Position numbers and translations under genes: made by a program
Notes under the pieces: model-generated
The model's database searches: none
The model's input: the letters and a program-made list of their open reading frames with translations, nothing else
What the model was told of the DNA's origin: nothing
DNA from: a virus
DNA: 46,230 nucleotides
Direction: 5' to 3' (one strand)
IMG/VR virus record: IMGVR_UViG_3300008262_000232
Span: 1-46,230 of that record
Shown here: positions 4,419 to 25,280 of the stretch, one piece after another
Layout: the number at the start of each line of letters is the position of its first letter
Numbering within the stretch: position 1 is the first letter of the stretch

Positions 4419-6257
4419 ATGGCAAACAAAAAGATATCTTATACTACAAGAGATTTTCAACAAATAAGAAACGAATTAATCAATTTTACAAAAACGTATT
4501 ATCCTGATTTAGTTGATAATTTTAACGACGCTTCTGTTTTTTCAGCACTTTTAGATTTAAATGCTGCGGTATCTGACAACTTACAGTTCAATATTGACAG
4601 AAGTATTCAGGAGACAGTTTTACAATACGCTCAACAAAAATCATCAATATATAATATTGCTCGAACTTATGGATTAAAGATACCTGGACAAAGACCTTCA
4701 GTTGCTTTAGTTGATTTTTCAATCACAGTTCCTGCTTTTGGTGATAAAGAAGATGTTAGATATTGTGGTATTTTAAGAAGAGGTTCTCAAGTGTTAGGTG
4801 CTGGACAAATTTTTGAAAATGTATATGATATTGATTTTGCTTCACCTGTAAATGCTGAAGGATTTCCAAACAGATTAAAAATACCAAATTTTGATGCTAA
4901 TAATAAACTTTTAAATTATACTATTGTTAAAAGAGAAACAGTAGTTAATGGTCAAACAAAAGTTTATAAAAAAGTTATTACATCAAACGATGTTAAACCA
5001 TTTTATGAATTATTTTTACCTGAAAAAAATGTTTTAGGTGTTACAAGTGTACTTTTAAAAGACGGTACTCAATATGCAAATGTACCAAGTCCTCAAGAGT
5101 TTATAGGTCTTGATAATAGATGGTACGAAGTTCAGGCTTTGGCGGAAAATAGAGTTTTTGTTGAAGACCCTACTAAAGTATCTGACAGTCCAGGTATTAA
5201 AGTTGGAAAATATATTGAAACAAGTACTAAATTTATGTCAGAATTCACACCTGAAGGATTTTGTAAAATGACTTTTGGTGGTGGTAGTCAATCTGCTGAT
5301 GAACAATTAAGAGAGTTTGCTAGAAATGGATATAAATTGAATTTGTATAAATATTCAAATAATTTTGCTTTAGGGTCAACATTAAAGGCGAATACTACAT
5401 TATTTGTTCAGTATAGAGTTGGTGGTGGAGTATCTTCAAATTTAGGTGTTAACGTTATTACTCAAATAGGTAATGTTTCATTTTATGTAAACGGACCATC
5501 AGCAAATATAAACAATATAACAATTAATTCACTTCGTTGTACAAATGTTACTGCTGCTATAGGTGGAGCGAACAACCCAACAATAGAAGAAGTAAGAAAT
5601 TTAGTTTCATTTAATTTTGCGGCTCAAAACAGAGCGGTTACGGTGAACGATTATGATTCTATTATAAGAACAATGCCTTCACAGTTTGGAGCACCTGCAA
5701 AAGTTGCGATAACTGAAGATAATAACAAAATTAGAGTAAAAATGTTGTCATATGATAATAATGGAACTTTAACTGAAGTTATATCAAACACATTAAAAAG
5801 TAATGTTGCAAATTATCTGTCTAATTATAGGATGATTAATGATTATATTTCAATTGAAAGTGCTAACGTTATTGATTTAGCGTTAAACATTGATGTTGTA
5901 TTGGATAATAGTCAAAATCAAGGAGCGGTAATCTCTCAATTAATTAGTATTGTTAGTACATTCTTTGACCCTGGTACAAGAAATATGGGTGAGAATGTGT
6001 ATATCTCTGATTTGAGACGTTTAGTACAAGATGAAAATGGAGTTATATCTGTTTCAGATATCCAAGTGTTTAACAGAGTTGGTGGTCAATATTCGTCATC
6101 ACAAACATCACAATCATATTCTGATAATACAACAAAACAAATCCAATTGGTTGATGATACTATTTTTGCTCAACCAACACAAATTTATCAAGTAAGATTC
6201 GCAACCAAAGATATTACAATTAGAGTTAAAAATCTTACTACCGTTAACTTTTCTTGA
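4419..6257 (+). CDS. 6: Baseplate wedge protein, gp6-like (Baseplate_J)
   Basis: This 612-residue protein resembles T4 gp6, which forms the wedge ring of the baseplate and belongs to the Baseplate_J superfamily. The N-terminus (ISYTTRDFQQIRNELINFTK, then YPDLVDNFNDASVFSALLDL) is the family's typical opening, with a helical region SIQETVLQYAQQKSSIYNIA next. The C-terminal half contains the conserved-looking stretch AAQNRAVTVNDYDSIIRTMP, which in this family precedes the J-like fold. Size is close to T4 gp6 (660 residues). It directly follows gp25. Confidence 0.85.
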   Translation: MANKKISYTTRDFQQIRNELINFTKTYYPDLVDNFNDASVFSALLDLNAAVSDNLQFNIDRSIQETVLQYAQQKSSIYNIARTYGLKIPGQRPSVALVDFSITVPAFGDKEDVRYCGILRRGSQVLGAGQIFENVYDIDFASPVNAEGFPNRLKIPNFDANNKLLNYTIVKRETVVNGQTKVYKKVITSNDVKPFYELFLPEKNVLGVTSVLLKDGTQYANVPSPQEFIGLDNRWYEVQALAENRVFVEDPTKVSDSPGIKVGKYIETSTKFMSEFTPEGFCKMTFGGGSQSADEQLREFARNGYKLNLYKYSNNFALGSTLKANTTLFVQYRVGGGVSSNLGVNVITQIGNVSFYVNGPSANINNITINSLRCTNVTAAIGGANNPTIEEVRNLVSFNFAAQNRAVTVNDYDSIIRTMPSQFGAPAKVAITEDNNKIRVKMLSYDNNGTLTEVISNTLKSNVANYLSNYRMINDYISIESANVIDLALNIDVVLDNSQNQGAVISQLISIVSTFFDPGTRNMGENVYISDLRRLVQDENGVISVSDIQVFNRVGGQYSSSQTSQSYSDNTTKQIQLVDDTIFAQPTQIYQVRFATKDITIRVKNLTTVNFS

Positions 6258-9300: not shown

Positions 9301-11546
9301 TTCGTCATAATGACCCTTCAATAATTGCAAATAGTTCATCTATAGATTCATATTCAAACGAATTTTTATATTATAATTCTTTTCATTTTTTACCTAGCCC
9401 AACAAATTTTTTACCATTCCAAACTAACTTGACAACATTTTATTCTAAAATTGATGAGTCAAATGTTAATGGTGCGGGTACAGGTGTTGTACTACCTAAT
9501 CCTGTTTCACCAAACTCAGGATTAGTAATAAGTCCTTCTAACGGATTTACAAAAGAATTATATATATTAGGTAATACAAGTCCTAATATATATGTTACCT
9601 ATCCATCAGGTCCGACACTACCACAATTTGTATGGAACTGGCCTACCTCAACGAGAGACAGAGGATATTATAGAAATGAAATAGTTGAAGGTGGTTCATT
9701 TATAAACGTTAATCCTGGCGATTTATACCCTACTTGGTCTTTAATTCCAACAGTATCAGTACCAACATTCCCACCATCAGTATCATCTAATTATTATTGT
9801 GAAAAGTATCAATCAACTGACGTAGTTAATATTAATTTAGGGTTATCGGGTAGACAAATTGTTATGAGGTCAGATAGATTACCAACATCTACTAGTATAG
9901 AAGATTCAGGTTCATCAACACATGTATTGTTTTCAAATAATAATTTTGGAATTTTTCCTGTCCCTGAAGAAGGATTTAATTTTATTGTAACGACACCAGG
10001 ACTTGGAGGAATACCTGATGGTGCTACTTTAGATAACCAACAATCTTTAACTGACTTATCTAATGAGTTACCTTATTTTTCAGGTGAAGGAATTTCAAAT
10101 TCACCTAGTTGTGGGGCAATAGTTCCTTTAAGATGTTACGGTACTGATGAAAATGGTATTTTATATGTAAAACCACCAGGTGATTCCTGTTATGAAAACG
10201 GTATAAATGGTGAATTAATAATAAAAAACGGAAGTTGTTATAGTTTAATTAGCGTACCAATTGTATCACTACTATTAGATTTTGCGTTAATTTACGAATG
10301 GGTAAAAAGAGTGAAAACAAATATCATGGCTTGTCAAGGTGTATTTGGACATATATTTACAAACAATTGGATTAACGGAACACTATTTGCCTTTCCATTT
10401 AATAATACGACAAGATACACTACTAATTTTGAACAATTACCAGGTCAATTACCTCCAAATACTCCTTATTCTTGTTATTGTAAACATAATATATTTTTAA
10501 ACCCTGATACACAAAATTTTTATTATAGAAGTTCACCATATAAAACAAATATTGGGTTTATTGGTAGAAGAAATCCTGTACCAGGTGATGATGATTCATC
10601 ATCATCTTATGGTGGGAATAGTCTTGACCTAATGTACCCAACAACTTTAATTGATTTAGGACCTAGAACTTCATATAGTGAAGAATTATCTCTTAATAAC
10701 GACTATAATGGTTATGTTATGGATAGATTATCACCAACAACATTTAAAGATACTACAGAATTATTAAATTTATTTATTCTATCTAGAACTTTTTCTTCAG
10801 GTTTCATTTCTACCATTATTCAAACACAAATTGACCCAGCGATTGTATTCTTCCCAAGAAAGAACAATAAAATTGCGGGAGATTATGCTCAAATGGATGC
10901 TATAAATTCACAATTAGGTGTACAAGAATATCAAGATGGTGAATATGGGGCATCACAAATATATTTTAGTACTGCATTATTCAGAAATATTTTTGGAATA
11001 TTTTATAATACTAATTTACAAACTACTGATTTAATTTCACCTAAAAGGAATATAATTAATCAATATTCTAATCCGAGTAATTACTGTACTTTTGATGAAT
11101 TCCCAATAACTTCTCAAGAAGTACCATTTTATTTATGGAAAATTAGACAACCTGTTGGTTCTGAGATACTTGGAAATTTACTTGGGGGTGATTCTATTTT
11201 TGGTTCTTCATTAAGAAATAATTGGGATACATTACCAATTAATGGTCAAACATTCCACACTTTAGAATACCAAGAAGTTGATAGGGTAAATCCACTTCAT
11301 AGAAATATGCAACCTGTTGATACATCACAATCAAGATTTTTCAAAGGTTTTATATCCAATAGTGTAGGTTCCGACCCAGTCACTTTAGCTCCAAGTTATT
11401 CTGCCCAACCCCCAACTGCGGGTGGACCATCAGATAGAAAAATATTACAAGGTGCCCCTTATTATTTTTACTTTGGATTAAAACCTGGAGCAACAGCATA
11501 TGATAGATTTCAAATTAAATGGATAAAAACTGAAATAATTGAATAA
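6330..11546 (+). CDS. Very large virion/baseplate protein with hydrophobic segments
   Basis: At 1738 residues this is the largest product in the window. Its position right after gp25 and gp6 and its beta-rich, Asn/Ser/Gly-rich composition mark it as structural. Residues about 45-170 (VVVGRVTVNNGLGIPNARIS ... TNESGDYMIFGVPIG) resemble a carboxypeptidase-regulatory-like beta-sandwich. Residues about 523-572 are almost entirely hydrophobic (LLSLLLVNLIAIVFV, HILIAIVCLLSYIVW), enough for two membrane helices. A second hydrophobic patch lies near 1303-1320 (SVPIVSLLLDFALIY). Short Cys-rich motifs such as CEFCDC follow the first patch. The hydrophobic parts are unusual for a tail protein and could insert into the host envelope during DNA entry (inference). 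No T4 counterpart is assigned. Confidence 0.7.
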   Translation: MSDSYRIRTQVGVDKSVRVQLDQDFESLEILSLKILQSDIYTRQCSDYGVVVGRVTVNNGLGIPNARISVFIPLSDDDSNNPIISSLYPYKSLNELNDDGFRYNLLPYEKQHGGHNPTGTFFNREDVLINPSFIEVYDKYYRYTCQTNESGDYMIFGVPIGTQTIHVDIDLSDIGEFSLSPQDLVRLGFANENQLNGTEFKSSFNFADLPQIVTINRTLEVEPFWGQPEICNLGITRTDFDLQQELGLKIEPTAIFMGSIISNVDEAILKQNCNVKPKLGEKCSLIAGPGQILAIRQTIFSDNLGRPILEEYKLEQGGKCIDENGTWLIDVPMNLEYVTTNEYGERVISLDPKTGVPTKAKYRFKIKWDQPSSFDYIVRRGNFLAPNIKEWGWIDPDNDPSYLDTYDDTLCKQPNLNDYNDSNYRQVKASYAFSLNWDDYAELDTFGNVTSTGQLMIDDAISCRDRFYYMTYNKVYSVSQLLTEYRSQKGNRKYIGIKNITNEDCNGTANKFPSNDGQKEPSFLYTILNFLLSLLLVNLIAIVFVIHILIAIVCLLSYIVWFIKLIVCSLYDFFNWLTNLEIAGFTPFDGGFIGGIAFLLEQGCNALTSAYEFLDDTCKGFTLNLPMYTYPDCEFCDCSPAEIGGEVSPSDVGGGGISTFNENNGNMFTFLSQINLPGSYTCGNTSLNNLISGFENRVPSLQGGPSSYYFTSSLHFSERLNLYNTKAKYFNESTENPGGGWNRVKVSFNVNMNDPETQWHLDNIVVLMINPDSEMDYTTGNLITFQDYKRSTDPNLTGSTVVNSFNNNAITGTPTGFITGPEGSEYYQEPITVSYANPDGSGNLSQLYLITGATDDANYCKFPIDLEYFQIIHSSSVSDFIADSNPSELNTLTNRFLNNYSLVTQIDGSGSVFSNESQTTINNSCFNNFGNQILVFLVRGVDPNSTRTTCQFDLSRIYGYDVDFNTTWNPLYTISGQFKLNIPIQGSYRCVRHNDPSIIANSSSIDSYSNEFLYYNSFHFLPSPTNFLPFQTNLTTFYSKIDESNVNGAGTGVVLPNPVSPNSGLVISPSNGFTKELYILGNTSPNIYVTYPSGPTLPQFVWNWPTSTRDRGYYRNEIVEGGSFINVNPGDLYPTWSLIPTVSVPTFPPSVSSNYYCEKYQSTDVVNINLGLSGRQIVMRSDRLPTSTSIEDSGSSTHVLFSNNNFGIFPVPEEGFNFIVTTPGLGGIPDGATLDNQQSLTDLSNELPYFSGEGISNSPSCGAIVPLRCYGTDENGILYVKPPGDSCYENGINGELIIKNGSCYSLISVPIVSLLLDFALIYEWVKRVKTNIMACQGVFGHIFTNNWINGTLFAFPFNNTTRYTTNFEQLPGQLPPNTPYSCYCKHNIFLNPDTQNFYYRSSPYKTNIGFIGRRNPVPGDDDSSSSYGGNSLDLMYPTTLIDLGPRTSYSEELSLNNDYNGYVMDRLSPTTFKDTTELLNLFILSRTFSSGFISTIIQTQIDPAIVFFPRKNNKIAGDYAQMDAINSQLGVQEYQDGEYGASQIYFSTALFRNIFGIFYNTNLQTTDLISPKRNIINQYSNPSNYCTFDEFPITSQEVPFYLWKIRQPVGSEILGNLLGGDSIFGSSLRNNWDTLPINGQTFHTLEYQEVDRVNPLHRNMQPVDTSQSRFFKGFISNSVGSDPVTLAPSYSAQPPTAGGPSDRKILQGAPYYFYFGLKPGATAYDRFQIKWIKTEIIE

Positions 11547-13366
11547 TGAGTAGAATTTTTGATGATAGAGTTGTTTTAGGTTCTTTAAGATTTAAATCAG
11601 CACCAAATACTGATTTATTATTTAAGATACCTTTTATACAAAGTAGTAAAATATTAACAGAATATGACAGAAGTGAAAGTATTAGTTTAAGTCAAGTTTT
11701 TGATGATGAAAGACAAAGGTCAACATTATTTAGACCCACATCAAAATTCCAAATTTTATTTAATAATACTTACACTGGGTCAACAAATTATCTACCATTT
11801 AAAAATGAATTATATTATACCAATGCTAAACAGGCGGCCGCTTTAACTTGTGTTAACCCTCAAAATACTATATGGCAAGGATTTCCACAGTACCATGAGT
11901 TTGATTTTATTAGAAATGATATATTTGAGTCAGGTTATACACAATATGATACAACTTATACACCTCCTCTTATTCACAATTTATTTGTTCCAAAAAGTGC
12001 ATCAACATATAATTGGAATCATTTTTTGAGTTATGCTTTTGAAAATGATTATAATAAACAACTACAGACTTTATATAAAGTGGATAGTAATCCTGTTGTG
12101 ACATTATCTTGGATTGTTTCTGATGGTATACCATTTGTGATTAGTAACACTCAAATGAATGGGATGAATGTTGTTTCATTTATATGTCCTATGAAACATA
12201 ATGTTTTAGTTGGGGAATATATAAAATTGAGTTTTGATTATTTAGGTCAGGATACTTTCCAAGTTGATTCATTAGGTAATGGTTCAATAGGAAGTGAAAA
12301 TTATATAATTAATATTTTAAATCCTGGGTTTCTTGGATTTATTTTTAATAACAATCAGACCGGAACTTTAAAAAGAATTGTAAACCTTAATAATCAATCC
12401 GAGACAACATCGAAATATTATATTAGACGACACAAAATATTAACTAATTATGATGATTCGTTAATATCTTATGCTGGTTTTGAAGAAAATGTTTTTGGTG
12501 TGAATAAGCAATACGAAAGGTCTAGTTTAACACCAAATGGTCGAGCAAGAATTTCCACTAAAAATGGTGATAAATCTTATACTTTAAGTTTTAATAAAGA
12601 TATTGATATTTTAGGTTTAATTGATAACCAAAAAAGACCTGTTTCTGAATTATTTTACACGACACTTTGGATTGGATATTTTGGATGGACTTTAGGAGAA
12701 CCAAACCAACAAGGTGGATTTTATAGGATGAGACAAGGTTGGGAATTTAATATACCATTACATCCTGTGACAGAACTTCCATCATCTTGGTGGTCATATG
12801 CTAATAGTAATTCTGACTCAGGAATTGATAATAGTTTTTATAATGTACCGTCACCATATGGTAATAATAATGGTCAACCATTTAATTTTGTTTATAATCA
12901 AACATTACAAACAGGTGATATTATTGATGGAGCTATTTGTGAATGGAATGATTTTCTTCAAGAAGAAACTGTTTTAAATGAATTATATCACAAAATAACA
13001 TTTAATAGATATAATTTTAACATTGGAATGACTAGTTCATTATCCTTAAACCAATTTGGATATTTTTATAAACCATTTGAGGGTGTTAAGATTAGAGCAT
13101 TTTCAGATTCAATAGAACAAGCACCACCAAGTAACGATTATATTGTACCTGACCACTCTCAGTTTTCAGTAAATCGTAATGTTTTTGTATGGAAAGATAT
13201 ATATACATATGGATTCATTGATAATAATGGTATTGGTGTTGATTTTCCTTTTTTAAATAATAAACATCACCCTTATAAAAATATTATTTTTAGAATCATA
13301 CCTGAAGGTACAAACTACAGAGAGTTTACTACCATAATTGACCCAATAACAGATAACTGTGAGTAA
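11546..13366 (+). CDS. Structural tail/baseplate protein (606 aa), unknown family
   Basis: The start ATG shares its A with the TAA stop of the preceding gene (TAATG), implying coupled translation and fixed stoichiometry with the 1738-residue protein. The sequence is rich in Tyr, Asn and Phe with alternating beta-like segments (GFYRMRQGWEFNIPLHP, KPFEGVKIRAFSD), few charged runs and no signal peptide. This composition fits a virion protein. I recognise no family. Its location in the middle of the baseplate operon makes a baseplate or fibre-attachment role likely, but that is inference. Confidence 0.6.
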   Translation: MSRIFDDRVVLGSLRFKSAPNTDLLFKIPFIQSSKILTEYDRSESISLSQVFDDERQRSTLFRPTSKFQILFNNTYTGSTNYLPFKNELYYTNAKQAAALTCVNPQNTIWQGFPQYHEFDFIRNDIFESGYTQYDTTYTPPLIHNLFVPKSASTYNWNHFLSYAFENDYNKQLQTLYKVDSNPVVTLSWIVSDGIPFVISNTQMNGMNVVSFICPMKHNVLVGEYIKLSFDYLGQDTFQVDSLGNGSIGSENYIINILNPGFLGFIFNNNQTGTLKRIVNLNNQSETTSKYYIRRHKILTNYDDSLISYAGFEENVFGVNKQYERSSLTPNGRARISTKNGDKSYTLSFNKDIDILGLIDNQKRPVSELFYTTLWIGYFGWTLGEPNQQGGFYRMRQGWEFNIPLHPVTELPSSWWSYANSNSDSGIDNSFYNVPSPYGNNNGQPFNFVYNQTLQTGDIIDGAICEWNDFLQEETVLNELYHKITFNRYNFNIGMTSSLSLNQFGYFYKPFEGVKIRAFSDSIEQAPPSNDYIVPDHSQFSVNRNVFVWKDIYTYGFIDNNGIGVDFPFLNNKHHPYKNIIFRIIPEGTNYREFTTIIDPITDNCE

Positions 13367-14180
13367 TAAGTATAAATTTACAATACCAATTTCAACCGAT
13401 AAATATATTAATATACCGGTTGAAATTAAATGGGATTTTCATGGTCAAGATGATAGTATTGAAGAATTTAAAGAAAATTTAATTGGTGATATTATTGGTA
13501 ATCCAAAAGATTATGAGACTCTAAGATTTTCACATAACTCATATGGAGAAAATTCATTTACAAAATTACAATATAATTTTTTCTTTTATAATTCTACGTC
13601 TAGTGATATACCAACATCAAACATTTTAAACTGGACTCAAAATTACGAAAATGCGGGAATTCCATATAAAGACGTATATTATAAAACGAGACCCTTTAAA
13701 AAATCTTTTTTCAAAATAGATTTTTACGATACAAAAGAACCAAATACACAAAAAAATTATTTTACAATTATTTTACCTGTTACTAACAGTGAATTTATGG
13801 AAGAATTTATTCCAAGTATAAACTCATTGGGTAATGTGAAAATTAATTTCCCTCAATTTAATTTGGATTATGTTGGGTATAATGAAGGATTTTTTATTTA
13901 TTGGTTAAAAGATTTTGATTTATTTAAGCTGAAAACATTTTATATGACTGCTAAATTTTTTGATGCTAAAAATGGTGTTTTTATAAAAATGATGACAGTT
14001 CCACAAGCAACTTTACCTGGTGATAGATTTTCATTTAATCCATCTGATTATTTTTATTATAAAGTGGATTTAAATTATACTAATAAAACATATGAAATTT
14101 ATGATGTTGTTTCATTAAATAGGGTAGGTACCGATACTTCACCTATAAACTGGTTTGAATATGTTAACCCACCTGCGTAA
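13359..14180 (+). CDS. Structural tail/baseplate protein (273 aa), GTG start
   Basis: The gene opens with GTG at 13359 (VSNKYKFTIPISTDKYIN, with Met as initiator), overlapping the upstream gene by 8 bases; no ATG fits as well. The protein begins with paired beta-strand patterns and the segment PVEIKWDFHGQDDSIEEF, then aromatic-rich stretches (YNFFFYNSTSSDIP). I recognise no family. The tight overlap with both neighbours and the shared composition place it among the baseplate/tail structural proteins. Confidence 0.55.
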   Translation: MSNKYKFTIPISTDKYINIPVEIKWDFHGQDDSIEEFKENLIGDIIGNPKDYETLRFSHNSYGENSFTKLQYNFFFYNSTSSDIPTSNILNWTQNYENAGIPYKDVYYKTRPFKKSFFKIDFYDTKEPNTQKNYFTIILPVTNSEFMEEFIPSINSLGNVKINFPQFNLDYVGYNEGFFIYWLKDFDLFKLKTFYMTAKFFDAKNGVFIKMMTVPQATLPGDRFSFNPSDYFYYKVDLNYTNKTYEIYDVVSLNRVGTDTSPINWFEYVNPPA

Positions 14181-15352
14181 TGGAAGATAGATTATTTAAA
14201 ATAAGAATTTCACCTGAAAATATTAAGGGTGATTTAGTTCCTTTAAGATATATTCTAAATGAATATTCTGAAGTACTTCCATTTGACCCATGTTGTCAAA
14301 TAACTGGTGATACTGTAACAGGTATAACTACAGGAATCACTTTTACATATACCTCTATGACGGAATTATTGTCGGGAGGTACTGAAGGTAAATCACTTTT
14401 AAATTTAACAATCCCAATTTTTTTAAGTGAAAATATTGTTGATATTGGTTATTATAATGTATTTGATGGACTTGTGTCTCAAAAAGACACTTTATTGAAT
14501 TTTTTATTTAGTGCTGATACTATAAATCCATATAGGTATTACTTTTTTAATACTTCAGATATCGAATTTAAAAAATTTCTTGAGTTTTGTGATTATCAAA
14601 TTAGTTGGGGTGATGGTACACCAATTCAAACAGTAACATCAGTTTCACCAAATTATTATTATCATGATTATGTTCAAGATGGTGAATATGAAATTGTAAT
14701 GTCAGGTATGAGTCCTTGGGGGTCTAATATTATTAAAAAAACAGTATATGTTCCGTTCGATAATGTTACAATTACCAACCCAAGTGGTGAAGTGTTTTTT
14801 ATACCAAGTGGAGGTAATTGGTCTGCGACTCCAATATCTTATGATTACATTTTTTCAGGTGATTCATACTGTGAAAATAATTCACCATGTTGTGATTTTA
14901 CAACAGTTCCGTTTTTAGTTACAGGATATACGTTCTCAAGAGCGAATGATTTAGAAGTATATGGTAAAAAAGTGGATTTAGTGTTAGGTAAGTTTAAACC
15001 TGGTGTAACAGTTACAGGACCTAATGGTTCTGAAGGTATTTGGTGGGGTTCATCTCCTGATGGATTGTATACTGCCTATACAATAAATAATATTAATTAC
15101 TATGATTATGTGGATGGCTCAACGGTATTTGTTGTTGAATCGTCAGGTTGTACAAGTGATTTGATATGTTCAGCTATTACAAAAAATGAGGTTTTAATGA
15201 ATGTTATCTCAGAAATTGAAGTACAATCAAATGTTTTTGCAGAAAGAGGTAAAAATACGGCTTTAGAATATATCCAAAGATTAGGTGAAGTGAGGAATAT
15301 GGGACAACTTGATAGCTATGGTTATGGATTTTTTAATGTTATAAAAATATAA
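14180..15352 (+). CDS. Structural tail protein with PKD-like domain (390 aa)
   Basis: The start is coupled to the upstream stop as TAATG. Residues about 130-195 contain YQISWGDGTPIQTV, a Tyr/His-rich stretch, then DGEYEIVMSGMS. The W-G-D-G motif and following strand pattern are hallmarks of a PKD-like immunoglobulin fold, common in surface adhesins of Bacteroidetes and in phage decoration proteins. A helical C-terminus (ALEYIQRLGEVRNMGQLDSY) could serve for oligomerisation or attachment. It is most likely a virion surface or baseplate component. The gene ends just before a TATTTAT box, so it closes the 6330-15352 operon or subunit. Confidence 0.6.
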   Translation: MEDRLFKIRISPENIKGDLVPLRYILNEYSEVLPFDPCCQITGDTVTGITTGITFTYTSMTELLSGGTEGKSLLNLTIPIFLSENIVDIGYYNVFDGLVSQKDTLLNFLFSADTINPYRYYFFNTSDIEFKKFLEFCDYQISWGDGTPIQTVTSVSPNYYYHDYVQDGEYEIVMSGMSPWGSNIIKKTVYVPFDNVTITNPSGEVFFIPSGGNWSATPISYDYIFSGDSYCENNSPCCDFTTVPFLVTGYTFSRANDLEVYGKKVDLVLGKFKPGVTVTGPNGSEGIWWGSSPDGLYTAYTINNINYYDYVDGSTVFVVESSGCTSDLICSAITKNEVLMNVISEIEVQSNVFAERGKNTALEYIQRLGEVRNMGQLDSYGYGFFNVIKI

Positions 15353-15358
15353 ATTCAA

Positions 15359-15370
15359 TATTTATAAATA
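15359..15370 (+). promoter_or_regulatory. TATTTATAAATA box before the 302-aa structural gene
   Basis: The sequence TATTTATAAATA contains both the recurrent TATTTAT box (15359-15365) and an exact match to the T4 late-promoter octamer TATAAATA (15363-15370). It lies 21 bases before ATG 15392 in a 39-base gap. A promoter role is inferred. Confidence 0.42.
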
Positions 15371-15391
15371 CGAAAGTAAAATTATTTTAAA

Positions 15392-16300
15392 ATGGCAACA
15401 GGCACATATGGTACAATAAGACCGTCAGACGTTTCACCCGAAGATGTTGATATAATAATGTTATATACTCCATCAAGAGATGAAACTGATAATTTTGTTT
15501 TAACAAAATTAAATTCAGTTTCTTTATTGAAACCATACTTTAACAATGCTCAAACAGGTGGAAATACAGATGTTGAAGTTTTAGGTGGTTTATATAATTT
15601 AAAATTGCCATCTGACCAATTTAATAAACTTGGGATTTATACACTTTATTTGAGACCTACTGAAATAAGAACTACAATTTTAGATTGTGGTGTTTTGTCG
15701 GCATTACCAAATGTTAGAGGTTTGGTTATTGATTTAAATGCTGTACCAGCAGAATTCAGAAATAGATTTATAAATCAAGGATTAATTGGTTATAGAATTG
15801 AATATCTAAATGATAATGGTACAAAAATACCAAATTTTTTCAGGATAATAACATCATGTTTTTATTGTGAACCTGTTGTACAAAATTTAACAAATACTAC
15901 AGCGAAGGCGGTTAGATATAGGTATACTGATAATAATACAAATCTAATTTTTTGTACTCTAACCCCATCAACTGCACCGACTAATAAACCAAATGCTATT
16001 CCATATATTGGACAACCAAATCAAAATATTGTAATTACGAATACTTTTTTCAACCCAATTACAATTGATATTGAAATTGCTGACCAAGACTTCTCAACTT
16101 TAGCAATTGCTCTTTATGGTAATCAAACTAAGTCTATGGATGATGGAATTTATACAATTTATGATTCTAATAACAACATTTATAAACAATATAACTTGTA
16201 TGAAATCAGAGACCAATTTAATAACTTGTTATATGAAGTGAGACAGGATAGAGGTAATAACATTGACTTTAGTAAAAACTTTACAAATATAACTCAATAA
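15392..16300 (+). CDS. Structural tail protein (302 aa), unknown family
   Basis: It starts at ATG 15392 after a promoter-like box and ends in a TAATG overlap with the 1006-residue gene, so the two are probably made together. The N-terminus (GTIRPSDVSPEDVDIIMLYT) and beta-rich body with few cysteines suggest a compact virion protein. The segment EVRQDRGNNIDFSKNFTNI closes the protein. I do not recognise a family. Candidates by position are small baseplate wedge or fibre-socket proteins, but no motif decides this. Confidence 0.55.
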   Translation: MATGTYGTIRPSDVSPEDVDIIMLYTPSRDETDNFVLTKLNSVSLLKPYFNNAQTGGNTDVEVLGGLYNLKLPSDQFNKLGIYTLYLRPTEIRTTILDCGVLSALPNVRGLVIDLNAVPAEFRNRFINQGLIGYRIEYLNDNGTKIPNFFRIITSCFYCEPVVQNLTNTTAKAVRYRYTDNNTNLIFCTLTPSTAPTNKPNAIPYIGQPNQNIVITNTFFNPITIDIEIADQDFSTLAIALYGNQTKSMDDGIYTIYDSNNNIYKQYNLYEIRDQFNNLLYEVRQDRGNNIDFSKNFTNITQ

Positions 16301-19300
16301 TGGCTGTTAATAAATTTCTTTGCCCCCCGATTGCAGCAACTGGAAGTGGTTCATTTTCAGATGATTTAGTTGGTTTTCAATTAGTTCAAGGTGGGGGACT
16401 TACTCAAGGTAATTTTGAATTTACCGTTGGTGTTACGGAAAAAACCAATCGAGAGTTTTATACTGGTACTTTTTCAGACCCAATAAATTTAACATCTATG
16501 GGTGTTGAGAGTGTTGCTCAATCTAAAGTAATATTTGAAAATAACTTTAAAGTATATCCAAATTATGATTTAAGTGAGGTAACTAATTTCACTTTATATG
16601 GTTCAATGACGAAGAGAATATCTACGTCTGTTACAACTATTATAAATTATTTTCCAGCGGCATTGGAAATGCAGTTTATTGGTATTAATTACACCACAGG
16701 AACAACAGCGTCTAACGTTGTATTTGATTCAATTGAAAATACTACAAAATTTGATTTAGATTTATCAAGAATTAGAAACCCATTCGGTATTGATTTTACG
16801 GTAAATTCAACAAGGAATTTATCACTTAAAGAAGTTCAAGTTTCACCTCTAAGAGATATGACTATAGAATATAAAAAATATTCTTTATTCTATTTGGGTA
16901 ATGAATTTCCTTTAATTTTATTATTACCTACAACATCTCTAACATCTGGTTTATTAACAATATATGTTGAGGGAAATCCATTTTCAGGTGAAACTCAAAT
17001 ATATAATGATATTGTAGTTAGACCTAATGATTATGAGGTTAATAAAGTTTTTAATGAAAGTTTGGATGACGTTGAAAATTTTATTTTAAATAGAAACTCT
17101 GTTCCTAAATACACTGCTCAATTTAAAATACCTCAAATGAGTGATGGTGGACAATATTCGGTAACAAGTACATTTATCACATGGCCTTTATCAGGAAAAT
17201 GGAACTTAGATATTGTTTCAAGTACATTTACGACATACTTAACAAAATTAAATGCGGTAAGTGAAGATTTTGATTCTTATCGTACAAATTTAATTGCTAG
17301 ATTTTTAACCACTGATGCGTTTAAAGAGTTTGATACTGTGGGTCAAAAAATGCAAAAAGTTTTACAAATTTATGGTAGAAGTTTTGATGAAATAAATAAA
17401 TTCATTAATGCTTTGGCGTTTATGAATTCTGTTCATTATAATACAGGAAATGATATACCATCACAACTATTAAAAAATTTAGCTCAGACTTTAGGATGGA
17501 ATACTTCAATTTCACCAATTAGTAATGATAACTTTTTAAATTCTGTATTTGGAAGTACTGATAGTGGAGTCTCTCATTTTTCAGGTTTACCTACACAACA
17601 AACACCTGACGAATTAAATTATCAATTCTATAAGAATTTAATTTTAAATTCGGCATTTCTTTTCAAATCAAAAGGAACAAGAAAATCAATTGAAGTTTTA
17701 TTAAGATTAATTGGGGCACCTGATGCACTTGTTGAATTTAATGAATACGTTTATTTGGCTGACCAAAGAATTAATATGAGTAGTTTTGAAACACAATACG
17801 CTCAAATTTCGGGAGGTACTTACTCACAAGAAATACCTATATTGAATCCTGCGGATGTTTTCACAATTTTTGGGGTTTCTTATACTGGAACGACAACAAC
17901 TACATCCTATGAAGATGTTAATTTTATAATTTCGGAATATCCTATAGATAATGAAGGATATCCATCAGTACCTGAACCAAGTCAGAGTTATTATTTCCAA
18001 ATAGGTGCGGGATGGTTTGAATCCACACCAAAACACAGGTCACCTGAACAAATAAATTTAACTAATGCTGTCTTTACAGGTTCAAATCCAAATTATCAAA
18101 CAAGTTTGATACCATTTTCTTATGGTCAAATTTATTTAAATAGATTTAGATATTTCCCTTATACGAAATTAGGTTTTAATTTAAGAGAAACCATAGATAA
18201 TAATAAAAGTTGGACTAACAACGAAATAGGCCTTAGAACAAATTTCGATGCTGGATATAACTCAAGATATTTTACTGATGATGACCGTTTAGTTTTAAAT
18301 GTTAAAAACACTGAAATATTTTTAAATCCCGCACAAGGATTGGCTTATGACGTTTGGTATATGTCAAGACAGTACAATTACCCAATTCCAAATCAAGGAT
18401 TGAGATATGTGCCACCAACACCATGTAATCCAAGCCCTGTATCTAATTATCCTATCAGAGGAGGTGTTGATTGGACAGAGATTAATCCTAAACCTGGAAG
18501 AAAAACATTTTTTGAGTTTGCTCAAACTTTTTGGTTGAATATGATTAATGTTAGGAATAGACAACATATTAGTGATGGTAAGACAGGTGGTTATCCGACA
18601 TTACAGTCAATATATTGGAAATACCTTCAATCGGAAGAAAATATTGGTATTGCTAATGATAACTTTACATATCAAACAATGATTCAGTATGTTGAAGGAT
18701 TAGGTGACTATTGGGTTCGTTTAATTGAACAATTAGTTCCGGCAACAACAATTTGGAATACTGGTTTAAAATACGAAAACTCAATTTTCCACAGACAAAA
18801 ATTTGTATATCGAAGACAAAGTGGTTGTCAGTTAATACCTATTCCTTGTAATCCATGTTCACTTACTACTAATATTTTCAGTTATGATTGTCCTGTTGAG
18901 TCTGTTGAGTGTTCTAAATACCCTTGGATGGTTAGTACGACAATACAAGATTTTACAGGTGTTTTAGGTGTTCTATTAAATAACTATTTGACGGCAAATG
19001 GATATATTTTAAATGATTGTGTTGTTGATAGTTTAAATACTGAATGGTTTGTTGATTTAAGATTTAATGACGTACCTGTGGTTACAGAAAGTTTCTTTAA
19101 TGGTATTGGTTATAATACACCAGGGTTGAGTAGTCCTACAAATACAGATTGGGAAAATGGTTTAGTAAATGCTTTGGATAGTTTATCTTCACTTGGTTAT
19201 GATTATTATTTAACAAGTGAAGATACCATAATTATATATGGTACCGTGTGTGGTTTGGATTTAAATGATTTAAATTTCAAACTTAACTTAGGAATAAATT

Positions 19301-19320
19301 TTAATATTTTGTGTAATTAA
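16300..19320 (+). CDS. Large baseplate/tail protein with P2 gpI-like segment (1006 aa)
   Basis: The gene is coupled at both ends by TAATG overlaps. Residues about 335-485 form a helical region (AFKEFDTVGQKMQKVLQIYG, then FDEINKFINALAF, DIPSQLLKNLAQTLGW and FLFKSKGTRKSIEVLLRLIG). That pattern resembles the P2 gpI / tail-protein-I type of baseplate wedge protein. The surrounding parts are beta-rich. Size and neighbourhood are reminiscent of T4 gp7 (1032 residues), but I see no motif proving orthology. The last 140 residues hold a Cys-rich start (CQLIPIPCNPCS) and a module that resembles the C-terminal module of the next protein. Likely a wedge or tail-tip component carrying adhesin proteins. 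Confidence 0.6.
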   Translation: MAVNKFLCPPIAATGSGSFSDDLVGFQLVQGGGLTQGNFEFTVGVTEKTNREFYTGTFSDPINLTSMGVESVAQSKVIFENNFKVYPNYDLSEVTNFTLYGSMTKRISTSVTTIINYFPAALEMQFIGINYTTGTTASNVVFDSIENTTKFDLDLSRIRNPFGIDFTVNSTRNLSLKEVQVSPLRDMTIEYKKYSLFYLGNEFPLILLLPTTSLTSGLLTIYVEGNPFSGETQIYNDIVVRPNDYEVNKVFNESLDDVENFILNRNSVPKYTAQFKIPQMSDGGQYSVTSTFITWPLSGKWNLDIVSSTFTTYLTKLNAVSEDFDSYRTNLIARFLTTDAFKEFDTVGQKMQKVLQIYGRSFDEINKFINALAFMNSVHYNTGNDIPSQLLKNLAQTLGWNTSISPISNDNFLNSVFGSTDSGVSHFSGLPTQQTPDELNYQFYKNLILNSAFLFKSKGTRKSIEVLLRLIGAPDALVEFNEYVYLADQRINMSSFETQYAQISGGTYSQEIPILNPADVFTIFGVSYTGTTTTTSYEDVNFIISEYPIDNEGYPSVPEPSQSYYFQIGAGWFESTPKHRSPEQINLTNAVFTGSNPNYQTSLIPFSYGQIYLNRFRYFPYTKLGFNLRETIDNNKSWTNNEIGLRTNFDAGYNSRYFTDDDRLVLNVKNTEIFLNPAQGLAYDVWYMSRQYNYPIPNQGLRYVPPTPCNPSPVSNYPIRGGVDWTEINPKPGRKTFFEFAQTFWLNMINVRNRQHISDGKTGGYPTLQSIYWKYLQSEENIGIANDNFTYQTMIQYVEGLGDYWVRLIEQLVPATTIWNTGLKYENSIFHRQKFVYRRQSGCQLIPIPCNPCSLTTNIFSYDCPVESVECSKYPWMVSTTIQDFTGVLGVLLNNYLTANGYILNDCVVDSLNTEWFVDLRFNDVPVVTESFFNGIGYNTPGLSSPTNTDWENGLVNALDSLSSLGYDYYLTSEDTIIIYGTVCGLDLNDLNFKLNLGINFNILCN

Positions 19321-21461
19321 TGTCAATTTGTAGTCTAATATATAGTGCAAGTGTTACCGGTGATTGTAGTAATACTGGAGTTGGAAGTTTTTTAATTGAT
19401 ATAATTGGTTCAGCTCCTGATTACACAATAACTTGGGTCAATCCTACATATGGTACTATACCTTTATCTCCTGGTCAAACGACTTATGAGTTAAGTGGTT
19501 TATTGGCTGACACATATGTTTTTTATATTAATGACTCTTGTTTACCATCATCAACATCTGTATTGGTAAGTATCCCAATTTCAAGTGGAACTTGTTGTTC
19601 AATCGAACACCAAAATACTTTGTGTGGATTAGATAACGGTTCAATAACTGCGACGACATCTAATTTTTACGGTAATGCTAGCTTTTATTTATATGAAACA
19701 ACAGATGGATATATAACATCAGGTAATAGTTTAACCCAAAATTATACATTTACTAATTTATCCGCTGGAACATATTACGTTGTTGCAAATGATGGAGGCG
19801 GATGTACAGGTTCAAGTCAAAGTTGTATTGTAAAATCATCAACAACGGTTAGTTTTGGATTATACGTTGTTAATGATTCAGGTTGTTCACCCGGTTTGGG
19901 TAAGATATATATTACGGGATTAACAGGTAATCCACCATTTTCTTATTTGTGGTCAAATGGTGAGACTACTAATTTTATTTCAGGTTTAACTTCAGGTTCT
20001 TATTCAGTCACAGTTACTGATGGTACGGGTTGTTCACAAGGACTTGGTACTTTAGTTAATTTTGTTTCACCATTAGGATTAGGGTCTTTAATGTCAGTAA
20101 GTCCAACTTGTTTTAATTCGGATGGTGAATTAACGGTAACAGTGACTGGAGGTACCGCACCATATTATTTTTCAGGGTTTAACGGTGATAGTTCAATTAC
20201 TTTTAGTAATTCATATACGTTTACTAATTTAAGTAGCGGGTACTTTGGTGTATATGTAGTTGACGCAGGATTATGTACGTTAAATACTGGAACATCTATT
20301 TTAACACCTGGTGGGTTTAGTTTGGTATCTTTAACAACAAGTGATTCAATTTGTGGTAATAATGTGGGGAGTATTAATATTACATTACTTGGAGGTTCAC
20401 CACCGTATGTCTATTCAATTACTGGTACATCAGGTAATATTACGACAATTAGTTCATCAAGTCCTGATTATAATTTTATAGGATTATCTGCGGATACTTA
20501 TTCGTTACAAATTTCAGATAATGGTCCATGTGTATACAATGATATAATTACGATTAATAGTGTTAATAGTATTGAGTTGTACTATAATGTGACTGGAACA
20601 ACATGTGAATTAAATAACGGTTCTATTGAACTTTATTTAAATGGAGGTACAGGTCCATATACATATGATATAAATGGTAGTTTAATTGTCACAACTCAAA
20701 GTGCGGTAACGTTTACTAATCTATATTCAGGAACTTATTTAGCAACTGTTACAGATAATACAGGTTGTACAATTAATGAATGGGTTAATGTAACAAATAC
20801 TTCAAATATTGATTTTATTTTATCAGGTGTTGACCCATCAAATGGAAATGATGGTTCAATATCTGTATTCATAACAGATGGTACTCCACTTTTTAATATT
20901 GTTTGGAGTAATAATGTTAACGGGCAAACAGGATTGACAGTTAGTAATTTAACTGCGGGTACTTATACTGTAACGATTACTGATAGTTATAATTGTACTT
21001 TATCTAGAACAATAGATTTAATTGGTTATAATAACTTAGTATCTTACGAAGTTTTCAATATATGTGATTCAACATTTAATAACAATGGTATAAATACTAG
21101 AAAAGGACCTCAACAAATGTTAAATGAGGGATTTTACGATTTAACAAATGATGATTCAATATGTATTTTAAATAATGCTATTTTTATTGCTCAAGTTTCC
21201 GTAAGTGGTATTACTACCTCACAATCTTTTTATACTGGTTACACTTTAAATGATTATCCGTCAGATAACCAATTTTATGATGTTGTAACAACATTAATTG
21301 AGGCGTTTCCAGGTATTGACAATGTTATTGTTGACCCTATAAATAATTTAATTACAATAAATGCAGGATGTACTGACCAAACTATAAGTTTCTCAGATGT
21401 TTCGGTAATAATTACATTGAAAATTAATTACGATATTTCTTGTGTTGAATGTGCACCATAA
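19320..21461 (+). CDS. SprB-repeat tail adhesin (713 aa)
   Basis: The first 565 residues are about seven repeats of 65-75 residues of the SprB type, a repeat best known from the gliding-motility adhesin SprB of Flavobacterium. The clearest copy reads GNPPFSYLWSNGETTNFISG, then LTSGSYSVTVTDGTGCS; others end in GTYLATVTDNTGC and GTYTVTITDSYNC. Each repeat carries a D/N-G-S/E strand, a G-x-x-P-Y/F turn and a closing Asp-x-x-Gly-Cys. Residues about 570-713 form a separate module like the end of the preceding protein. There is no signal peptide, so it is not secreted as in the host; placement in the tail operon makes it a virion adhesin or fibre, probably for host recognition (inference). Confidence 0.72.
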   Translation: MSICSLIYSASVTGDCSNTGVGSFLIDIIGSAPDYTITWVNPTYGTIPLSPGQTTYELSGLLADTYVFYINDSCLPSSTSVLVSIPISSGTCCSIEHQNTLCGLDNGSITATTSNFYGNASFYLYETTDGYITSGNSLTQNYTFTNLSAGTYYVVANDGGGCTGSSQSCIVKSSTTVSFGLYVVNDSGCSPGLGKIYITGLTGNPPFSYLWSNGETTNFISGLTSGSYSVTVTDGTGCSQGLGTLVNFVSPLGLGSLMSVSPTCFNSDGELTVTVTGGTAPYYFSGFNGDSSITFSNSYTFTNLSSGYFGVYVVDAGLCTLNTGTSILTPGGFSLVSLTTSDSICGNNVGSINITLLGGSPPYVYSITGTSGNITTISSSSPDYNFIGLSADTYSLQISDNGPCVYNDIITINSVNSIELYYNVTGTTCELNNGSIELYLNGGTGPYTYDINGSLIVTTQSAVTFTNLYSGTYLATVTDNTGCTINEWVNVTNTSNIDFILSGVDPSNGNDGSISVFITDGTPLFNIVWSNNVNGQTGLTVSNLTAGTYTVTITDSYNCTLSRTIDLIGYNNLVSYEVFNICDSTFNNNGINTRKGPQQMLNEGFYDLTNDDSICILNNAIFIAQVSVSGITTSQSFYTGYTLNDYPSDNQFYDVVTTLIEAFPGIDNVIVDPINNLITINAGCTDQTISFSDVSVIITLKINYDISCVECAP

Positions 21462-21477
21462 AAATTAAGAAAACAAA

Positions 21478-22845
21478 ATGATATTAAAAAATGAACCAAC
21501 ATCCTATTTGACGGCAAACACTGAATGTGGCGTTGTTTATACATTTCAAAATGAATGTGAACCAATTACATTATATCCATTAGGTGTTGAATGTATTGTA
21601 ACAGATGCTACTCAAATTGGTAATTCGGATGGTTCAATTTTTTTAACTGTGACAGGAGGTACTCCACCTTATTTTATAGTTTGGGATGATAAAAACATTG
21701 GACCATATATTAATAATTTGGCGGCAGGTACATATACTGCGGTAGTTGTGGATTATTATGGTGATTTCTCAAGTACAACGACTTGTACAGTTTTACAACC
21801 AACATTACCACCGACACCAACCCCAACACCCACACCATCACCTTTACCAAATACTATAGATTTTTGTTTACAATTGAAATTAAAAAATTGTACAATAACT
21901 AATTTACATTTTAACCCAAACGGTTCATTTAATGGACAATACGCTTGGATTGATGATACCCTCGTTTATTCAATTTATTGGGATGGTGATAAATGGGTGT
22001 TAGATAGTTGGAGTTGTTATACTGTGATTAATAATAATCCTACCTCACCACCAATTACAGGATGGTCAATTTTAGGAACAACAGGTTCTGTAACAGGGTA
22101 TTTAGGTCCTTGTAACCCATCGACATCACTTCAAATGAAAGTCATGTCAAATGACCCGACAAAAGGTTCTGATGGTAATATTGTTATAACGGCGAGTGAT
22201 GGTAATCCTCCGTATTTATATTCTATTGACGGAGGAACTTCATATCAAGTATCACCTATATTTAAAGGGTTGAAATCAGGAGTATATGCGGTACAAAGTC
22301 AAGATTCAAGTGGTAATACTGTGTATGATTCTGTTACTTTGAAAAACCCACCATTATCAACTACTTATTCGGTTTCTCTTAAAACAACTTCAAGAATTTT
22401 ATCTTATACATTAACAACATACTCAGTAGAATATACAACGACAATTGATGTATCACCGGCATTACCAAGTGGCGTAACAATTAATTTTGATTTAGTACAC
22501 ACTAATGACTCTGAAGTTTCACCTTCACTTACATCGTCAACAATCTCAACGAGTAGTGTTTTAACTAAAAACATGGTAATTGTTCCACAAACAACAACTG
22601 TAACAACAGGTGAGACGGCAAATACTTTAGTTTTATGTGGTTCACAAACAATTTATTTAACTTCTGAAACTGATTCGTGGAATTCTCAAAGTTTAAATAA
22701 TACTGATAGTTTATATATTACAACAACTACAACTAAAATAAGGAATACTAATGATATTTGTTATTTATCTAATTCAAATGATACGTACTCTATTTATAAT
22801 GTGACTATTTTGGGATGTAGTCCATGTAATGTGATTGTTACTTAA
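21478..22845 (+). CDS. Adhesin-like tail protein with SprB-like repeats and Pro/Thr linker (455 aa)
   Basis: Residues about 40-100 form one SprB-like repeat (GGTPPYFIVWDDKN, AAGTYTAVVVDYYG). A Pro/Thr linker (PPTPTPTPTPSP, about 110-125) follows, then a small Cys/Trp module (IYWDGDKWVLDSWSC), and a second repeat at about 218-290 (DGNPPYLYSIDGG, LKSGVYAVQSQDSSG). The C-terminal 160 residues are Thr/Ser-rich beta sequence. It follows the larger SprB-repeat gene after 16 bases and is co-directional, so it probably joins the same fibre complex. There is no signal peptide. The host-adhesin-like design suggests receptor binding or surface display. Confidence 0.65.
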   Translation: MILKNEPTSYLTANTECGVVYTFQNECEPITLYPLGVECIVTDATQIGNSDGSIFLTVTGGTPPYFIVWDDKNIGPYINNLAAGTYTAVVVDYYGDFSSTTTCTVLQPTLPPTPTPTPTPSPLPNTIDFCLQLKLKNCTITNLHFNPNGSFNGQYAWIDDTLVYSIYWDGDKWVLDSWSCYTVINNNPTSPPITGWSILGTTGSVTGYLGPCNPSTSLQMKVMSNDPTKGSDGNIVITASDGNPPYLYSIDGGTSYQVSPIFKGLKSGVYAVQSQDSSGNTVYDSVTLKNPPLSTTYSVSLKTTSRILSYTLTTYSVEYTTTIDVSPALPSGVTINFDLVHTNDSEVSPSLTSSTISTSSVLTKNMVIVPQTTTVTTGETANTLVLCGSQTIYLTSETDSWNSQSLNNTDSLYITTTTTKIRNTNDICYLSNSNDTYSIYNVTILGCSPCNVIVT

Positions 22846-22874: not shown

Positions 22875-25280
22875 ATGGGATATATTTTAAAAAATACTGC
22901 AGGATTAATAAATTCAAGATTAACTGACACTGGCAGATTAAAGTTGTCACAAGGAAATTTTAATATTTCATACTTCCAAATTGGGGATAGCGAAGTTTCA
23001 TACAACACACTTCCAAGTACCTATAATCAGTATGATACTATGATTTTAGAACCTAACTATAATTCTCAAAATTCATCATATTATCCTGAAACTAACAAAC
23101 AATACGTAAAATATCCTTATTTTGTTGCGGGTACTAAAGGTAATACTTACGGTATACCGTTTATGGATTCATATGTGAGCCCTGTTTATAATAGGGCTGC
23201 AATGAGAGGATTTTTTACAGGTGATTTAACTGCAACAACTATTGATTGGAGTGCTAGAACAAATAGTAGTTATGTAATTAATTCTAACTACATTGTTGAT
23301 ATGACAACATTAACTGGTGGTACAACAATAAAACTTATATATTCAGGTTGTAATACTGATATTGTTAGATTACCACAAGTTGGTGATTTAGTTACAATTT
23401 ATTATGACGGTGGTCAAGTTAGTAATAGTTGTTATTGTGAATCTCCAACACCTACTCCAACACCATATGCTAGTTCGACACCAAGTGCAACTCCATTACC
23501 CTCATTACCACCTTGTGATACACCAACTCCGACACCAACACCTTCGTCAACAATTTGTTTATCACCGACACCAAAAAATTATTGTACACCAACACCAAAA
23601 CCTGAATGTGTAGTTGATATTACTAATTGTTACCCTGTATTGACTTATCGAATTGTCTCAATATGTCTAAATGAAGTAACATTAGATAGAGCAACACCTG
23701 ATTATAGTATATTTTTACCGGGTTGTTACGGAAGAGCAATAATCTACCCATCAACAATGACTGAAATCTATGACAGTTTAACTCCAAGTCCACATTGGAG
23801 AGATGATGTTATTAATTTTGAATCAATTTGCGATACGGACCAATTTGATGTTAAAATTTGGAATATGAATATTCCTTGGTCTGAAAATCCTGCAGGATTA
23901 ATTTCAAATAGTTATGAAGATTATACTCAGTTTGGGTCAATTAACTATTTGGGGTCTAAAGAGTATTTTGGATATTCATCATCTTCAGGACAAACTGATA
24001 CTGACTCTGTTTATTTCTTTAACTCTTTTTCTGACAAAATAGTGGTGACACCTGAAGAACAAAAATCTATTGCGATTGTTCATTATACAAATCAAACTAT
24101 TGATAATTTTTATGGTGAAAAATTTGCATTAGAACCTTATGATGTTTCTAATCCTAATGATACGACAGGACAAGCTAGGAACTTTAGAGTTCATTTGCCT
24201 TGGTTAATGTGGCATAAGTCGCCAATTTGTTGTAGTGGTCAAACATTTTGGGTTGACCCGCCTGGATTTGAACAACTTAATTTATTTGAAGTTCATTATT
24301 TGGAGTCAGATAAAAATACTGATATGAATTTACCTGGACATAGGTATTATCATTTATGGGATACTAATATTAATATTAATGGTTATCCTAATAGAGTCGG
24401 AAAGGTATTCCCTGATGATAAGATTATAATTTTTGATGATGAGGAAATCATTGCGGCAATGTCATATAAGTCTAATCGAAATTGGACATTACCGGCACCG
24501 AGAGTTTCATTAATTACTCCAAATACATGTGGAAATGAAAATCCAGTAAATGATGGTATTTTAAGTGCTAATACCGAATATCTTTATGTTACTTATAGAT
24601 TGGGTAACAGTAGTGGTTTTACTAATTATCTTCACTGTAACTATTATATGAAGATGCAAGGACCTAATCTTGATTGTACAATAACTGATTCACAGAACGT
24701 TGCCGTAAGATTTGGAACTGAGTTTTCTTGTTTAAATTATATTGAAGAAATTCCTGCAACTCTAACAGGATTTGTTGCAGATACTTTTGAAATATTGGTA
24801 CAAAAGGTTGAAGGGGATATTAGACCAAATTCTGCTGAGTGGAAAGTGATAGATTTTTCTGACTCTTTATCCGCAACAACTATTAATGGGTATATTACCC
24901 AAGATAGTTTAACAGGAAATACATTTGTAATAACACAAGATTTGTACGATTCCGCTCCAACATATGACTTAAGTGATTATATTGATTTAACCCCACAAGG
25001 TGCAACAGGACAAACTTTGAATTTTGGGGATGAGTATTATTTTTATGGTTCATTAGAAACAGATATTGAAGCAACAATTTATGAAATGAGATATAAAATA
25101 AATTTAGGTCAAGCTGAATTCCAAAGTACTACTAACCCAACATGGTTACCTGGTACTAAATCATACATTACAGAAATTGGTCTTTATGATTCTGAAAAAA
25201 ATCTAATGATTGTGTCTAAAATGCAATCACCAATTTTAAGAACAGGTATACAACAGTTCTTAGTAAAGTTTGATTTTTAA
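22875..25280 (+). CDS. Tail fibre/baseplate-type protein with Pro/Thr linker (801 aa)
   Basis: The N-terminus (LINSRLTDTGRLKLSQGNFN, YFQIGDSEVSY) resembles an opening seen in structural proteins of T4-like environmental phages. Residues about 191-245 are a Pro/Thr/Ser linker with scattered cysteines (PTPTPTPYASSTP, CTPTPKPEC), absent from typical relatives and shared with adhesins elsewhere in this window. The C-terminus (SYITEIGLYDSEKNLMIVSK) carries the T-E-I-G-x-Y-D motif common to tail-collar and fibre-attachment modules. The protein is likely a virion component at the fibre-baseplate junction. It is the last + strand gene of the tail module. The Pro/Thr insertion looks like a later acquisition. 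Confidence 0.6.
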   Translation: MGYILKNTAGLINSRLTDTGRLKLSQGNFNISYFQIGDSEVSYNTLPSTYNQYDTMILEPNYNSQNSSYYPETNKQYVKYPYFVAGTKGNTYGIPFMDSYVSPVYNRAAMRGFFTGDLTATTIDWSARTNSSYVINSNYIVDMTTLTGGTTIKLIYSGCNTDIVRLPQVGDLVTIYYDGGQVSNSCYCESPTPTPTPYASSTPSATPLPSLPPCDTPTPTPTPSSTICLSPTPKNYCTPTPKPECVVDITNCYPVLTYRIVSICLNEVTLDRATPDYSIFLPGCYGRAIIYPSTMTEIYDSLTPSPHWRDDVINFESICDTDQFDVKIWNMNIPWSENPAGLISNSYEDYTQFGSINYLGSKEYFGYSSSSGQTDTDSVYFFNSFSDKIVVTPEEQKSIAIVHYTNQTIDNFYGEKFALEPYDVSNPNDTTGQARNFRVHLPWLMWHKSPICCSGQTFWVDPPGFEQLNLFEVHYLESDKNTDMNLPGHRYYHLWDTNININGYPNRVGKVFPDDKIIIFDDEEIIAAMSYKSNRNWTLPAPRVSLITPNTCGNENPVNDGILSANTEYLYVTYRLGNSSGFTNYLHCNYYMKMQGPNLDCTITDSQNVAVRFGTEFSCLNYIEEIPATLTGFVADTFEILVQKVEGDIRPNSAEWKVIDFSDSLSATTINGYITQDSLTGNTFVITQDLYDSAPTYDLSDYIDLTPQGATGQTLNFGDEYYFYGSLETDIEATIYEMRYKINLGQAEFQSTTNPTWLPGTKSYITEIGLYDSEKNLMIVSKMQSPILRTGIQQFLVKFDF

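Follow-up and report, generated by a model that had tools for sequence, protein, structure and literature searches.

Two neighbouring genes of a phage genome fragment encode proteins with SprB-type repeats. This raises the question whether the phage has borrowed modules of a host adhesin, as the earlier note had suggested, or whether the repeats serve as structural elements of the virion. The window, that is, the whole stretch of DNA that was analysed, is one entire IMG/VR record of 46,230 bases; it is part of a bigger phage, with related records of up to 322 kb.

Genomic context and probable host

At the head of the operon are ribonucleotide reductase genes; the genes for a gp25-like and then a gp6/J-like wedge protein follow. 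Both wedge genes are encoded on the same strand as the two SprB genes, and thus the baseplate operon context described in the earlier note was confirmed. The genes of the tail region are as follows.

3954..4412, + strand: gp25-like baseplate wedge protein, the operon anchor (PF04965, E 1.1e-11; phrog_261, E 2.4e-17)
4419..6257, + strand: baseplate wedge gp6 / Baseplate_J-like protein (phrog_219, E 2.7e-22; PF04865)
6330..16300, + strand: five conserved tail-region genes of 1738, 606, 273, 390 and 302 aa (relatives in 170-238 fetched loci)
16300..19320, + strand: conserved 1006-aa baseplate-region protein, immediately 5' of the candidate fibre gene (519 IMG/VR relatives)
19320..21461, + strand: 713-aa candidate fibre protein, with a knob behind seven SprB domains and without a tip
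21478..22845, + strand: 455-aa second SprB protein (Pfam 47.6 bits)
22875..25280, + strand: 801-aa tail-region protein, downstream (E 7e-6 to the Flavobacterium phage immuto locus L090, 26992-28005)

For each of the five tail-region proteins and the 1006-aa protein, relatives were detected in between 170 and all 240 of the phage loci that were fetched; some of these loci represent the same contig twice. The 1006-aa protein is 61-70% identical to its relatives, and profile searches against Pfam, PHROGs and the PDB placed it in no recognised family; its assignment to the baseplate follows from gene order. Sequence motifs had raised the suspicion that it might be similar to P2 gpI, which was not supported by the Pfam, PHROGs and PDB profiles. 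The ATG of the 713-aa gene overlaps the stop codon of the 1006-aa gene. The C-terminus of the 801-aa protein is related to an immuto protein that is encoded two genes upstream of the annotated tail fibre of that phage.

Behind the tail operon, two genes are located on the minus strand. One encodes a 641-aa leucine-rich-repeat-like protein (25999-27924) with related ORFs in 31 fetched loci, and the other a 719-aa protein with long PTPTP linkers (27924-30083) that matches phrog_15511 (function unknown) with an E-value of 7e-15. As phrog_15511 also matches 11 of 46 relatives of the fibre protein, these genes probably have modules in common.

No near relatives were found at the DNA level among the phages searched. 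When known phages were compared by protein, the fibre protein matched LR756502.1 only, while no match was obtained for the 1006-aa and 1738-aa proteins. PF13573, the SprB family of Pfam, was absent from Flavobacterium phage immuto, Tenacibaculum pT24, Cellulophaga phi13:1 and LR756508. In its ribonucleotide reductase, the window shares 40-43% identity with Cellulophaga and Tenacibaculum phages, compared to about 29% with the next-listed Enterococcus, Pseudomonas and Bacillus phages. For the gp6/J-like protein, immuto is among the closest phages (27% identity to its baseplate wedge protein). Judged from these similarities, the host is likely to belong to the Bacteroidota. The gene of the large subunit of the ribonucleotide reductase (489-2931) is split into the overlapping ORFs 489-2327 and 2305-2931, the latter of which holds the remainder of the barrel domain; a frameshift or a natural split are both possible.

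SprB-type domains in the two proteins

PF13573 was the best family for both ORFs, with 63.8 bits (E 1.1e-17) for the 713-aa protein and 47.6 bits (E 1.3e-12) for the 455-aa protein at a curated cut-off of 28 bits, and no other model exceeded its cut-off in either of them. Pfam alone located seven SprB stretches in the window, distributed over both ORFs. In addition, nine repeats of 75-90 aa, seven in the first and two in the second protein, were bounded by eye, aligned, and built into a profile of our own. The domains of the 713-aa protein, the N-terminus of which reads MSICSLIYSASVTGDC, are as follows.

19320..19589, + strand: SprB domain 1 (own profile; beta-sandwich in the model)
19590..19847, + strand: SprB domain 2 (own profile; beta-sandwich in the model)
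19848..20072, + strand: SprB domain 3 (Pfam 16.8 bits; own profile; model)
20073..20315, + strand: SprB domain 4 (Pfam 36.5 bits; own profile; model)
20316..20570, + strand: SprB domain 5 (Pfam 28.2 bits; own profile; model)
20571..20807, + strand: SprB domain 6 (Pfam 27.6 bits; own profile; model)
20808..21035, + strand: SprB domain 7 (Pfam 19.7 bits; own profile; model)
21036..21458, + strand: knob, a conserved alpha/beta domain of about 140 aa after repeat 7 (profile E 2.5e-60; helix-strand pattern in the model)

An AlphaFold2 model of the 713-aa protein (pLDDT 82) predicted seven successive 7-stranded beta-sandwiches of the Ig-like fold that is expected for SprB repeats, followed by the alpha/beta domain. 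The pTM was low (0.37), and thus the spatial arrangement of the domains is not fixed by the model. The profile search and the structure prediction that the earlier note had proposed therefore both bore out its assignment to the SprB type and its count of about nine repeats.

One might argue that the SprB match reflects a mere Ig-like motif and that the domains descend from phage Ig domains in general, without any special relation to the SprB repeats of Bacteroidota, which would be compatible with a fibre. The PF13573 profile is just 37 positions long, and T5 pb10 and a neck-whisker domain reach 26.6 and 21.8 bits against it, respectively. However, SprB surpasses the next-best Ig-type model (20.8 bits) by about 43 bits in the window, several single repeats score 28-36 bits on their own, and nearly all domains have kept paired cysteines that are missing in the aligned T5 stretch. 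We regard a generic origin as possible, though doubtful, and the domain as a marker of an Ig-like rod with a probable Bacteroidota flavour.

Neither window protein contains a signal peptide, in agreement with the earlier note, or a C-terminal T9SS sorting domain over the cut-off. A match to Por_Secre_tail is located in the middle of a protein, and its 20.8 bits are below the cut-off of 27 bits. Hydropathy likewise revealed no hydrophobic core of a signal peptide in 46 relatives. Both features were detected by the same analyses in a 1670-aa SprB protein of LR756502.1, a 642-kb uncultured phage, which is encoded near topoisomerase genes (L089, 13453-18465). Besides a signal peptide and 13-14 homogeneous SprB repeats (mean identity 50%, best pair 80%), that protein contains a PKD domain and a T9SS sorting domain of the CHU_C type. 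It is apparently a host-type T9SS-secreted adhesin that was gained independently of the tail fibre. Its existence in a huge phage could be taken to suggest that the window proteins are also displayed on the host cell surface via the T9SS during infection and are not parts of the virion; yet they lack the signal peptide and the sorting domain that this route involves, and such a role is exceedingly unlikely. Their location in the virion, which the earlier note had concluded from the missing signal peptides and the baseplate operon, is presumed.

The second SprB protein

According to the alignment and a structural model, the 455-aa protein would consist of an SprB domain, a PTPTP linker, an all-beta domain, a second SprB domain and a C-terminal beta-sandwich.

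21565..21798, + strand: SprB copy 1 of the 455-aa protein (Pfam 34.9 bits; own profile)
22123..22353, + strand: SprB copy 2 of the 455-aa protein (Pfam 25.2 bits; own profile)
22354..22842, + strand: conserved C-terminal beta-sandwich of the 455-aa protein (mostly long strands, pLDDT about 85-96; alignment)

A structure search with the model yielded generic beta-sandwich matches only. In two relatives (L041, 15946-19341; L064, 15902-19303) the second SprB protein is fused to an N-terminal metallopeptidase-like domain with an HExxHxxxxxH motif, which by eye resembles pappalysin; if so, this fusion would place a protease on the tail fibre. In twelve further loci (L016, L037, L039, L046, L047, L051, L052, L067, L070, L074, L080 and L087), the homologues are encoded on the minus strand or split into two genes, in contrast to the plus strand in the window, indicating that the tail region has been rearranged among the relatives.

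A fixed array of seven repeats

A scan of IMG/VR with the 1006-aa protein retrieved 519 relatives, of which 80 were fetched, and further loci were added later. SprB repeats over the cut-off were present in 36 of 36 longer related records, and of the 46 fibre-protein relatives that were compared, every one matched PF13573. Exactly seven repeats were found in 92 of 93 distinct complete IMG/VR fibre proteins; in the 93rd, repeat 1 is split. The fibre gene is located directly behind the homologue of the 1006-aa gene in all 93 cases, the loci having been selected for similarity either to that gene or to the fibre. While the total length of the proteins varies from 711 to 1498 aa, the knob begins at nearly the same residue throughout (573-586 for the 5th-95th percentile).

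The individual positions of the array are orthologous. With a repeat profile that was built from these phages, the repeats at positions 1-3 found their best match elsewhere at the same position in 2862 of 2862 comparisons, and even for position 6, the least clear one, this was true for 2504 of 2862. In a tree based on domains of about 80 aa, each of the positions 1-7 was monophyletic (support 0.93-0.999) with no sampled bacterial repeat inside, and 11 label changes were observed versus at least 65 in shuffles. The median of the mean within-array identities was 28.7% for the phages versus 46.2% for bacterial arrays, in some of which copies are nearly identical. At the DNA level, repeats in the window are weak (the longest being 65 nt at 72%), which fits an old divergence. 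The fixed count, the orthology of the positions, the separate clades and the high divergence together make the array look like an old structural shaft, different from bacterial SprB arrays.

Possible borrowing of adhesin modules and a possible link to gliding

The earlier note had proposed that the phage borrowed host adhesin modules to bind to the gliding machinery or to the polysaccharides to which SprB binds. The family is indeed abundant in some Bacteroidota, with 148 repeats in one Crocinitomicaceae genome, and SprB was found in 11 of the 61 genomes sampled from the phylum to which the Crocinitomicaceae MAG belongs (Bacteroidota), compared to 0 of 14 controls over the cut-off. The repeat profile also gave a weak PDB sequence match (E 5e-4) to RemZ, a gliding-associated surface protein of Flavobacterium. 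However, the same profile matched the T5 decoration domain ahead of RemZ (E 5e-8), and PF13573 nearly accepts the Ig domain of T5, such that the motif is not diagnostic of gliding. Moreover, SprB repeats are not specific for gliding proteins: one has been described in a secreted fucoidanase (PMC7698502), and others occur in T9SS substrates that are encoded near toxin genes (PMC7073777). The fixed count, the orthologous positions and the clades free of sampled bacterial repeats also speak against borrowing, and the search for copies in bacterial genome contigs, be they from viruses or prophages, yielded one distant bacterial SprB protein only, with 27% identity. A recent borrowing of host modules, as judged from these comparisons, is thus not supported, and neither is a link of the array to gliding; as an explanation, the binding of borrowed modules to the gliding machinery or the SprB polysaccharides is very unlikely. 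The related idea that the domains were kept to meet SprB-type adhesins or the track of the host, such that virions attach to the moving surface layer of gliding Bacteroidota or are carried along by it, is even more improbable.

Knob and exchangeable tip

The knob was present in all 54 proteins compared, and those of the 53 others share 34-89% identity with the one of the window. Plain BLAST of the 1006-aa against the 713-aa protein gave nothing significant, and it was a profile-profile comparison that revealed the homology of the knob to the C-terminal 100 aa, approximately, of the 1006-aa protein (hhalign, 95.3%, E 2.2e-8). In plain searches, the profiles of the knob and of the 1006-aa C-terminus each retrieved members of the other group.

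The region behind the knob varied from 0 to 787 aa in the 93 proteins. Seventeen of these are nearly tipless, including those of the window's kind, and the 713-aa protein itself stops at the knob. Among 41 pairs with shafts of at least 70% identity, 15 had no detectable tip homology; such pairs cover shaft identities of 70-83%, e.g., L019/L071 with 82.9% for the shaft and 82.7% for the knob. Conversely, related tips were found on shafts that are merely 45-52% identical. Some tips matched Fib_succ_major (E 5e-42) or beta-propellers, and the others are unknown. A diversity-generating retroelement was considered as the source of the tip diversity and rejected, as none was detected and a reverse transcriptase was lacking in 29 related records.

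A fixed shaft, a conserved knob and an exchangeable tip constitute the architecture of a tail fibre, with a conserved proximal and an exchangeable distal part (the latter missing in the window's copy), and the gene resides inside a baseplate/tail operon. Nevertheless, Ig-like domains also occur on heads and necks, and the protein could be a decoration similar to Hoc, pb10 or whiskers that is encoded among tail genes by chance. In sequence searches of the PDB, the repeat was closest to the T5 decoration protein and to neck whiskers, and a weak match to a Hoc-like PHROG (E 9e-4), which involves the Ig parts only, reaches up to 6e-13 in relatives. No capsid-binding domain was recognised. However, the locus is at the baseplate, the gene following in 93 of 93 cases directly on a baseplate-region gene with which it shares the C-terminal domain. 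Exchangeable C-terminal tips also fit a fibre better, and a decoration protein is therefore unlikely.

Comparison with known systems

The closest precedent by analogy is crAssphage, in which a tail-region protein carries a stable tandem array of eight BACON domains (PMC6949934): the logic appears to be the same, the domain is another one. Both arrays consist of Ig-like domains associated with Bacteroidota, are set apart from the bacterial copies, and precede a poorly conserved C-terminus (PMC6949934). They differ in that the array described here has seven copies of SprB in an unrelated phage group, and that the sharing of the knob with the upstream baseplate-region protein and the exchange of tips could be shown. 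Pfam scans of the window ORFs and of the 46 relatives gave no BACON family match.

SprB of Flavobacterium johnsoniae has the repeat family in common with the window protein, which in contrast to it is encoded in a phage tail operon, has neither a signal peptide nor a T9SS sorting domain, and carries no long array but seven diverged repeats. T4 Hoc, T5 pb10 and the neck whiskers share Ig-like domains on virions, a location that is presumed for the protein of the window; the latter differs from them in its place in a baseplate operon, in its knob and in the C-terminal tip of its relatives. The best structural match in the PDB was the grappling hook GhpA of Aureispira (9fly, 9flp, 9flw), likewise a Bacteroidota protein with long Ig-like strings. 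GhpA is cellular and far longer (fragments up to residue 5009), and it was missed by the repeat sequence profile. A protein of the same kind is already present in UniProt under the automatic name 'SprB repeat' (A0A6J5LD72, uncultured Caudovirales phage, 714 aa), with 34% identity over the whole model. A literature search found no published treatment of SprB repeats in phages.

A proposed model for the fibre

We consider it quite probable that the 713-aa protein is the shaft and knob of a tail fibre attached to the baseplate of a large phage, the host of which is probably a member of the Bacteroidota. The seven SprB-type Ig-like domains would stack to form a rigid or semi-rigid rod of fixed length, and the knob of about 140 aa, which has its counterpart at the C-terminal end of the 1006-aa protein, would act as a junction or an oligomerisation module. 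A role of the whole protein in host-surface binding is likely, and contact with the host is more likely to occur at the variable tip beyond the array, which most relatives possess, than at the array itself. Because 17 of the 93 proteins are nearly tipless, the tip cannot be the sole receptor-binding element. In the tipless phage of the window, the receptor would probably be contacted either by the knob itself, by the second SprB protein or by the PTPTP-linker proteins encoded nearby.

At least 519 IMG/VR relatives belong to this uncultured group, in which the shaft, the knob and the exchangeable tip can now be told apart. The boundary between shaft and knob marks where putative host-range modules are swapped, which helps host prediction. 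An SprB annotation in a virus implies neither gliding nor secretion, and phages carry both kinds of SprB proteins, the presumed virion shaft and the T9SS-secreted adhesin. Beside the BACON array of crAssphage, the SprB shaft would be a second, independent case in which phages of Bacteroidota have built their fibres from Ig-like domains that are typical of their hosts.
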